In this document: positions 8,098-25,684 of the stretch, one piece after another | Position numbering within the stretch: the stretch's first letter is position 1 | How the letters are laid out: each line of letters begins with the position of its first letter | Assembly: GCF_016584665.1 (NCBI RefSeq) | Contig: NZ_BBJB01000059.1 | Span: 1 to 36,425, forward strand | Length of the DNA stretch: 36,425 bases | Reading direction: 5' to 3' | From: Pseudanabaena sp. lw0831 | GTDB lineage: Bacteria > Cyanobacteriota > Cyanobacteriia > Pseudanabaenales > Pseudanabaenaceae | Notes under the pieces: generated by a model | Databases searched by the model: none | Seen by the model: only the letters and a program-made list of their open reading frames with translations | Told to the model about the DNA's origin: nothing | Made by a program: the position numbers and the translations under genes

Positions 8098-8417
8098 AAA
8101 GTCTTCCAAACACCTACAGAATTTATTAACACGAAACTATTAACGATCAAATACAAACAGGAGATTTATTCCACTAGTAATAAATTACTATAACTTTCAA
8201 TATCCCCATATTGCTAGAGTCTTATACCAATTCTCGAAAGTGTGACCGCACTTTCGAGAATTAAAAACCAAACCCAGTAAGGGTTTTAAATTCTTAAAAT
8301 AGCAACGCTATTTTAAGAATTGGCATTACATTTATTTAGTATATTCATCGGTTACATCATATGTAATCAGTCGAACTGGTGATGACGACACTAAAAGCCA
8401 CGCTCAGTGCCAAAATT
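8098..8417. other. 320-bp gap between purC and omp85: promoter region plus a double-hairpin repeat
   Basis: No gene seen. Upstream of omp85 (minus strand) there is an AT-rich stretch with a 7-bp dyad TAGTAAT-AA-ATTACTA at 8175-8190, a possible operator. The double-hairpin repeat sits at 8224-8328. A second small dyad, TTACAT-CAT-ATGTAA, lies at about 8352-8366, just beyond the purC stop. Confidence 0.5.
8224..8328 (+). repeat. Double-hairpin dispersed repeat, copy 1
   Basis: About 105 bp. Ends are ATACCAATT and AATTGGCAT. First hairpin: AATTCTCGAAAGTG (8229-8242), 6-nt loop, CACTTTCGAGAATT (8249-8262). Conserved centre: AAAACCAAACCCAGTAAG. Second hairpin: AATTCTTAAAATAGC (8289-8303), AAC loop, GCTATTTTAAGAATT (8307-8321). 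Copy 2 is at 25337-25442 in the opposite orientation. Confidence 0.75.
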
Positions 8418-25202: not shown

Positions 25203-25262
25203 TTATCTCATGCTGTCCGCTTTGTATTGAAAACTGCAATATAGTGTCTAGCACTCTAATCA

Positions 25263-25313
25263 AAACCCAAAAAATGGGGGAGATGCTTTGCATCTCCCCC
25301 ATTTTTTGGGTTT
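25263..25313. repeat. Perfect 24-bp AAACCC-type hairpin
   Basis: AAACCCAAAAAATGGGGGAG... (25263-25286), loop TTT, exact complement at 25290-25313. It sits between the IS relic and the double-hairpin repeat. Confidence 0.75.
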
Positions 25314-25336
25314 ATAGCTAACAAGAGCTATATTTC

Positions 25337-25442
25337 ATACCAATTCTCAAAATGACAATGCCATTTTTGAGAAATTAAAATTCTTACTGGGTTTGGCTTT
25401 TAATTGCCTAAAGTGTAGTCACACTTTAGGCAATTGGTATTA
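25337..25442 (-). repeat. Double-hairpin dispersed repeat, copy 2 (abuts tRNA-Ser)
   Basis: Reverse orientation relative to copy 1 at 8224-8328. Perfect stem AATTGCCTAAAGTGT (25402-25416), loop AGTC, complement at 25421-25435. The second hairpin, TTCTCAAAATG/CATTTTTGAGAA, has one bulge. The centre, read on the minus strand, is AAGCCAAACCCAGTAAG. Ends are ATACCAATT and AATTGGTAT. Its end touches the 3' end of tRNA-Ser. Confidence 0.75.
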
Positions 25443-25529
25443 CGGAGAGAGAGGGATTCGAACCCTCGTTAAAGTTACCCCTAAACAGCATTTCCAGTGC
25501 TGCGCCTTCAACCACTCGGCCATCTCTCC
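25443..25529 (-). tRNA. tRNA-Ser (anticodon GGA)
   Basis: 87 nt, minus strand. The acceptor arm GGAGAGA/TCTCTCC is fully paired, with G as discriminator. The D-arm is GGCCGAGTGGTTGAAGGC. The anticodon stem-loop is CAGCA-CTGGAAA-TGCTG, giving GGA (reads UCC and UCU). A long variable arm, as in class II tRNAs, precedes GAGGG-TTCGAAT-CCCTC. CCA is not encoded; a repeat begins directly after the discriminator base. Confidence 0.95.
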
Positions 25530-25629: not shown

Positions 25630-25684
25630 AAAACCCAAAGGTTGTGAGGTGGCGCTTAGCGCCACCTCACAACCTTTGGGTTTT
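25630..25684. terminator. Perfect 26-bp AAAACCC-type hairpin
   Basis: AAAACCCAAAGGTTGTGAGG... (25630-25655), loop TTA with GC-TTA-GC tip, exact complement at 25659-25684. It lies 6 nt past the stop of the homocysteine-biosynthesis-family gene. Confidence 0.75.

Follow-up and report, generated by a model that had tools for sequence, protein, structure and literature searches.

A MITE-type element of Pseudanabaena with two subterminal hairpins whose stem covariation probably arises from template switching rather than from selection on RNA

A 36,425-nucleotide stretch of the Pseudanabaena sp. lw0831 genome (contig NZ_BBJB01000059.1; the window) holds two short repeats whose hairpin stems differ by compensated changes, and thereby raises the question of whether such covariation marks a functional RNA or has another source. 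The original prediction placed a double-hairpin element of about 105 bp at 8224-8328, with a second copy in the opposite orientation, and took covariation around an invariant single-stranded centre as the mark of a structured element, either a non-coding RNA or a mobile DNA whose protein recognises the centre. Both copies are present in the window in opposite orientation, and the differences read between them are real: three compensated pairs in hairpin 1 (H1), where CTCG/CGAG in copy 1 is GCCT/AGGC in copy 2, a near-loop T-G wobble that becomes T-A, and a compensated T-A to C-G change in hairpin 2 (H2). The span needed adjustment, the exact limits of copy 1 being 8225-8325 (101 bp) with TTA on either side (Table 1). 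The centre is well conserved, as had been claimed, but it is not strictly single-stranded, since AAACCC and GGGTTT can pair across AGTAA in copy 1, a pairing that is lost in copy 2. Folded as single-stranded DNA, the copies gave z-scores of -11.2 (copy 1) and -6.9 (copy 2) against 200 shuffles each. Copy 1 is flanked by two minus-strand genes, one of the Omp85 family and the other for SAICAR synthetase, and copy 2 adjoins the 3' end of tRNA-Ser(GGA) (25443-25529).

Table 1. Positions of the two element copies and their parts in the window
Feature	Position	Strand	Remark
Target-site duplication TTA, 5' copy	8222..8224	+	single TTA in three empty sites
Element copy 1, 101 bp, TACCAA...TTGGCA	8225..8325	+	
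Hairpin 1 (H1) of copy 1, 15 pairs, 4-nt loop	8229..8262	+	
Conserved centre of copy 1; minor hairpin AAACCC-AGTAA-GGGTTT possible	8263..8288	+	
Hairpin 2 (H2) of copy 1, 15 pairs, 3-nt loop	8289..8321	+	
Target-site duplication TTA, 3' copy	8326..8328	+	empty sites in relatives
Element copy 2, 102 bp	25338..25439	-	
H1 of copy 2	25402..25435	-	
H2 of copy 2, one extra base	25342..25375	-	
Flanking triplet of copy 2 (TTA on + strand)	25440..25442	-	abuts tRNA-Ser(GGA) 3' end
Flanking triplet of copy 2 (TCA on + strand), one base off the other triplet	25335..25337	-	

A DNA search of the strain's own genome (5.26 Mb, 118 contigs) located the element at no fewer than 40 places of 59-105 bp, the best 40 of 104 candidates scored. 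Thirty-five of these form the main alignment; L021, L027, L039, L040, and L043 were left out as truncated, interrupted or compound. The covariance-model search of the genome and its relatives that had been proposed as a check turned up many further copies: model R1 matched all 23 genomes of the window's genus, its own included, with 6 to at least 101 matches each, and none of 15 genomes of other genera. In three relatives, at least 150 matches each were obtained. In a scan of genome contigs with the exact core pattern, all titles among the 80 matches listed (108 stretches) were cyanobacterial, mostly Pseudanabaena; the same pattern had no match in viral contigs, for which reason carriage by phage was set aside. 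Pairs of exact ends lying 30-400 bp apart in the loci examined were most often separated by the length of copy 1, 71 of 113 measuring 101 bp. When 63 copies were compared with ad hoc open reading frames of at least 100 aa, 3 overlapped a reading frame, 34 lay between tandem, 14 between divergent, and 12 between convergent frames, with no bias toward convergent gene ends. A terminator role was rejected on this ground and because the minus strand of copy 1 holds one short terminator-like site, in the centre, a number near chance (1 vs. 0.6 +/- 0.8).

The element inserts as a unit bounded by TACC and GGTA, and its insertion leaves a TNA target of 3 bp duplicated. Copies begin with TNA-TACCAA and end with TTGGTA-TNA; by the script's end motifs, 24 of the 35 aligned copies carry TTA or TAA at both ends, and in 23 of these the two triplets are identical. 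Among 308 distinct copies from many genomes, each with at least 95 matched positions, TNA flanks both sides in 252, and the triplets are identical in 229 (TTA in 123, TAA in 95, TGA in 7, and TCA in 4). The original prediction had proposed a search of syntenic sites for clean insertion boundaries, and these were found for copy 1 in three relatives (G017, G008, and G019), which have one TTA and no element between flanks that are 94-95% (left) and 82-87% (right) identical. Another empty site was found next to the same tRNA-Ser: an element present there in G017 and G008 is absent from G019. At the site of copy 2 itself, all three relatives have a rearranged left flank. The region near tRNA-Ser has been hit repeatedly, since the element of G017 (L430) and G008 (L437) sits at a different place from copy 2 and G019 (L436) retains the empty site.

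Passages in PMC10969869 and PMC3733652 describe bacterial MITEs as small, non-coding, AT-rich repeats with terminal inverted repeats, a target duplication, many copies, and stem-loops. The present family is likewise short and non-coding, with terminal inverted repeats, a target duplication, many copies, and empty sites in relatives, so that the "mobile DNA" of the original prediction is borne out by copy number, TNA duplication, and clean empty sites. The element is best explained as a non-autonomous MITE-type DNA transposon of Pseudanabaena, presumably transposed in trans. As far as could be found the family is undescribed: among the genomes searched it was matched in one genus only, and open-licence literature contained, among the matches listed, no description of MITEs of Pseudanabaena.

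Transposition in trans is inferred, and it counts against this reading that no transposase with these ends was found. No autonomous partner with the same ends appeared among the PF01797, PF13586, PF13359, and PF01609 loci examined or in 2.33 Mb scanned. Pfam searches of the strain's own genome gave one Y1_Tnp gene, five PF13586 genes, and no PF13359; the five PF13586 loci carry no TNATACCA/TGGTATNA ends. PF01609 had 108 matches in five genomes, and at the 30 loci examined no end pair flanks a transposase gene. Of scans for end pairs over 0.96 Mb, over stretches of G022, and, with matching triplets, over 2.33 Mb, the last gave 16 pairs, and the inner reading frames of these were compared with Pfam. 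The 14 frames (the L268 pair was left out as the same site as L306, and two pairs at L071 share one frame) belonged to other Pfam families in 12 cases, including transporters, ThiC, RibD, and OTCase, had no match in 2, and were never transposases. The IS1031-like group of the IS5 family prefers TNA targets, and the 3-bp TNA duplication fits this group as a candidate source.

Stem covariation within the family is strong. Over the 35 aligned copies and the two 15-pair helices, 95.9% of 1050 cells are paired, and 15 of the 30 pairs have changed on both sides at least once. Cells changed on both sides number 103, compared with 27.8 +/- 5.4 in 500 shuffles, none of which reached 103, and with 19-30 in slid control structures; the covariation is therefore real, and the statistical test that the original prediction had proposed is significant. 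The two outcomes that it had named against itself, an absence of further copies and further copies without covariation, were both tested and neither occurred. Its description of a structured element is likewise supported. In a set of 99 copies (28 own copies and 71 higher-scoring matches of length 109, hand-picked from 289 matches obtained by searching 77 of the 80 core-pattern loci), perfect H1 stems comprise 13 arm sequences in 42 copies and perfect H2 stems 25 arm sequences in 59 copies. When copies are grouped by non-stem divergence, with class means from 0 to 27%, stem mismatch stays at 4.4-8.3%, so that pairing persists in diverged copies.

A transposase would read the two ends as one inverted repeat. 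At their variable positions, however, the two ends of the 99 copies show no covariation: positions 13 and 95 are equal in 49 of 99 copies compared with 48.0 +/- 3.3 after shuffling, and the lowest end-to-end shuffle counts were 48, 55, 62, and 76 of 1000 at positions 11, 8, 14, and 9. The arms within each hairpin do covary, unlike the ends, and specificity for the terminal inverted repeats was accordingly rejected as the cause of covariation. The centre, the TACCAA ends, and the hairpin tips are all well conserved in this set, and are probably held by recognition by the transposase.

Loop inversion and double changes of the arms occur in place, after insertion. This is seen in pairs of copies that occupy the same site in different genomes, defined by both flanks being adjacent and similar. 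Fifteen such pairs were found and 11 were counted column by column, with e178/e422, e363/e373, and e416/e425 left out as partial or containing an indel and e314/e390 left out for a left flank of 68%. Flank divergence across the 11 pairs is 4.9%. Their H2 loops are the same in 3 pairs, the reverse complement of each other in 4, and otherwise different in 4; their H1 loops are the same in 8, otherwise different in 3, and never the reverse complement. Of 330 stem pairs compared, 307 are unchanged, 20 changed on one side, and 3 on both sides with pairing kept, against about 0.10 both-sided changes expected from the one-sided rate if the sides were independent. All three fall at pair 71/97 and run in the same direction (A-T in G008, G-C in G019); part of the signal may therefore come from conversion between copies, and the excess of one-sided (20) over compensated (3) changes implies that correction is not fast. 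A further double change, T-A to A-T, separates L088 from L107 at one site, where the single other difference is in the loop; this pair is partial and stands outside the count of 11.

Two comparisons capture whole inversions. The hairpins at G008 L268:641 and G019 L306:643 are exact reverse complements, mismatch included, with 5 differences when aligned directly and 0 when inverted; likewise the H2 hairpins of L309 and L359 differ at 3 positions directly and at 0 inverted, between flanks that are 98.8% and 99.0% identical. Among 16 pairs of same-site hairpins of any kind, which overlap the 11 pairs above and come from an incomplete finder (L309/L359 is missing from its output), 8 are nearer when inverted, 6 nearer when direct, 1 is equal, and 1 is of unequal length. 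Among the 8 are a pair whose flanks are weak, at 80-83% (L362/L334), and four hairpins outside the script's element motif. One of these four, L370/L045, is really an element copy with a changed tip; the others include an exact loop inversion from AAA to TTT (L381/L311) and a loop inversion accompanied by a compensated change in the stem (L304/L329). These two and L389/L398 are hairpins outside the family that also flip or compensate in place. The flips are read from assembled sequences and may reflect assembly error at hairpins, a point against a template-switching origin.

The population of loops tells the same story for H2. In 249 closed H2 hairpins, loops and their reverse complements are both common (GTA 96/TAC 74, ATA 14/TAT 12, GTT 12/AAC 5, TGC 11/GCA 7), and the overlap of the loop spectrum with its own reverse complement is 0.835 on the 308 copies. 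On a set of 343 copies, which includes 35 partly matched ones and on account of which the counts were repeated on 308, the overlap is 0.857, compared with a mean of 0.073 for random loop pairings (0 of 2000 reaching 0.857) and with control overlaps of 0.017 for the plain reverse and 0.135 for the plain complement. The loops of 230 closed H1 hairpins are biased to one orientation (GACA 66/TGTC 11, GGCT 38/AGCC 6), and their overlap with the reverse complement is 0.329; on the 343-copy set, 14 of 2000 random pairings reach the corresponding value. This much weaker symmetry of H1 tells against template switching.

A third footprint lies at the outer edge of the hairpins. Among the 586 hairpins whose outer end is TACC, pairing extends through the whole of TACC in 22, and in 9 of these 22 the palindrome continues for 7-20 nt through the triplet into the flank with at most one mismatch (two of the 9, L118 and L251, are the same site); the other 564 show no extension beyond 3 nt. 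At L146, L114, L408, and G022 C1:284306, the 5' half of the element precedes the extended hairpin, with the junction in the element's centre. Palindromes extended in this way would result if the outer arm, the end, the target triplet, and the flank were copied into the inner arm. Some hairpins stand alone at 41-42 bp, and in some of these the palindrome reaches through the target duplication into the flank; four of the 22, at three sites (L268:637/L306:639, L323:1713, and L327:1684), are solo hairpins of this length with identical TNA triplets on both sides, from which it appears that a lone hairpin may be able to insert and may be the minimal mobile unit.

Taken together, we consider it probable that template switching remodels the hairpins of this MITE family, so that most of the covariation would arise without selection at the RNA level. 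In the proposed mechanism, a DDE transposase supplied in trans would move an element each half of which is a near-perfect hairpin beside the end. During replication, a nascent strand at a hairpin would copy the opposite arm or strand (quasipalindrome correction). The arms would thereby remain complementary as their sequence drifts, the hairpin would sometimes flip, and most of the covariation would follow with no need for selection on RNA. A bolder extension, to which we give somewhat less than an even chance, is that short Pseudanabaena hairpins flip and self-correct so often that H2 loop orientation is near equilibrium, and that this process, not selection, keeps the hairpin ends of the MITE and makes the solo hairpins. 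From the 4 inverted H2 loops in 11 pairs at 4.9% divergence, a rough conversion gives on the order of ten flips per substitution per site, though the pairs are few. If true, the genus as a whole would have a hypermutable process, hairpin flipping, whose outcome resembles RNA covariation.

The best reading of the covariation is accordingly that it is mainly mutational and is not evidence of a non-coding RNA; on this point the original prediction is not supported. Strong stem covariation, stable folding (computed as DNA), and conservation of the centre and the loop-proximal sequences are all what would be expected of a structured non-coding RNA, or an RNA element in mRNAs, with stems kept by selection on pairing. 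Selection on RNA would tolerate G-U and not A-C. Mismatches in the 308 copies are G-T in 139 and A-C in 162 cases in H1, with no G-T excess, and G-T in 74 and A-C in 57 in H2, a slight excess that counts for an RNA and yet amounts to no clear preference. H2 loops occur in both orientations, in-place inversion and arm copying are shared by some unrelated hairpins, copies show no bias toward convergent gene ends among the 63 compared, and in the window Rfam at the gathering score matched only the tRNA. Since G-T and A-C mismatches are about equally frequent, the ends do not covary, and the hairpins change in place, the pattern is unlike that of selection on RNA, and we regard an RNA origin of the stems as very unlikely. 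A further alternative is a REPIN-like element that an HUH/Y1 transposase (RAYT, IS200/IS605-like), selecting for the hairpin form, moves as single-stranded DNA; such an element would likewise consist of two inverted hairpin units within some 100 bp. A target duplication with clean empty sites points to a staggered cut rather than Y1 chemistry, and both the 3-bp TNA duplication and the empty sites are seen here; the one Y1_Tnp gene of the strain's own genome has no element match in its 4-kb region (L047), so that RAYT linkage is not seen. According to passages in PMC3116915, compensatory changes are common in REPIN stems, which favours this explanation and also means that covariation in a mobile hairpin is not in itself new. 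REPINs bear a GTAG or CGTC tag at their ends (PMC3733652); the Pseudanabaena element has no such tag and has TACCAA ends and a target duplication instead. We judge a REPIN-like origin to be extremely unlikely.

Two further explanations accept a MITE and place the cause of pairing elsewhere. The hairpin form might be kept by selection because a DDE transposase or host protein needs palindromic subterminal sequence, with template switching in a minor part; conserved tips and ends around a variable but paired middle agree with this, as do the 3 sites at which a solo hairpin lies between identical TNA triplets, so that one hairpin may suffice. This reading leaves loop inversion and palindromes that reach the flank unexplained, and stem mismatch remains at 4-8% whatever the non-stem divergence, pairing persisting in diverged copies. 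It also sits poorly with a numerous subfamily that carries an A-C mismatch at H1 pair 16/33 (13 of 33 copies in G008, 14 of 35 in G017, and 17 of 33 in G019), given which perfect pairing at this position seems not to be needed for spread. On balance we find such selection unlikely as the main cause. Ectopic gene conversion between dispersed copies could replace whole hairpins and so produce apparent double changes, and it is favoured by one site where an H2 arm has changed as a block (G000 L014 vs. G022 L255) and by the parallel A-T/G-C difference between G008 and G019 at three sites. Alone, it would not yield exact inversions with a private mismatch, loop symmetry under reverse complementation, or palindromes that include the flank, and as the principal source of covariation it is unlikely.

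Template switching itself is well described. Passages in PMC8794818 list multiple compensatory stem changes, stem extension, and fully inverted loops among its footprints and include bacterial loop inversions; arm homogenisation and spacer inversion are named in PMC8604942, and the process in Escherichia coli is treated in PMC7202029. The present hairpins share arm homogenisation, stem extension, and loop inversion with the quasipalindrome mutations of those accounts, and differ from the cases described there in belonging to a mobile repeat family for which three genomes have 150 or more matches apiece, in having both H2 loop orientations common, and in forming palindromes that reach the flank. 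Known families such as Correia/NEMIS, RUP, Nezha (cyanobacteria), and ERIC resemble the element in being small, non-coding, AT-rich, multicopy, and stem-loop-forming with terminal inverted repeats. By the descriptions given in the sources it is set apart from them by its TACCAA ends, TNA duplication, two independent subterminal hairpins, and matches in one genus.

Covarying stems are commonly read as strong evidence for a functional RNA. The Pseudanabaena family passes the covariation test strongly, yet a mutational process acting on DNA hairpins is its best explanation. Three relatives yield at least 150 matches each and the genus has sequenced strains, which makes the family well suited to measuring template-switch mutation in bacteria and to calibrating tests for covariation where hairpins are repeated. 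Small dispersed palindromic repeats in cyanobacterial genomes were reportedly described by Elhai et al. in 2008, a study cited in PMC3733652; the likeness to the present element, as a small repeated palindromic sequence, is one of description.

Other hairpin-forming repeats were encountered beside the family. At L077:2812-3117, a tandem array of half-elements of about 50 bp (TAATACCAAATAAAGAAATGGC...) is joined to a full element. Other long hairpin sequences lie in or directly beside elements at L040:1475-1682, L142:1365-1574, and L141:3763-4146, i.e., these loci are nested or clustered hairpin repeats. Within the window, two more long hairpins with AAACCC...GGGTTT ends, at 25262-25313 and 25630-25684, stand on either side of the tRNA-Ser region and look like another hairpin repeat family; the second of them recurs at the same site in G017, changed on one side.
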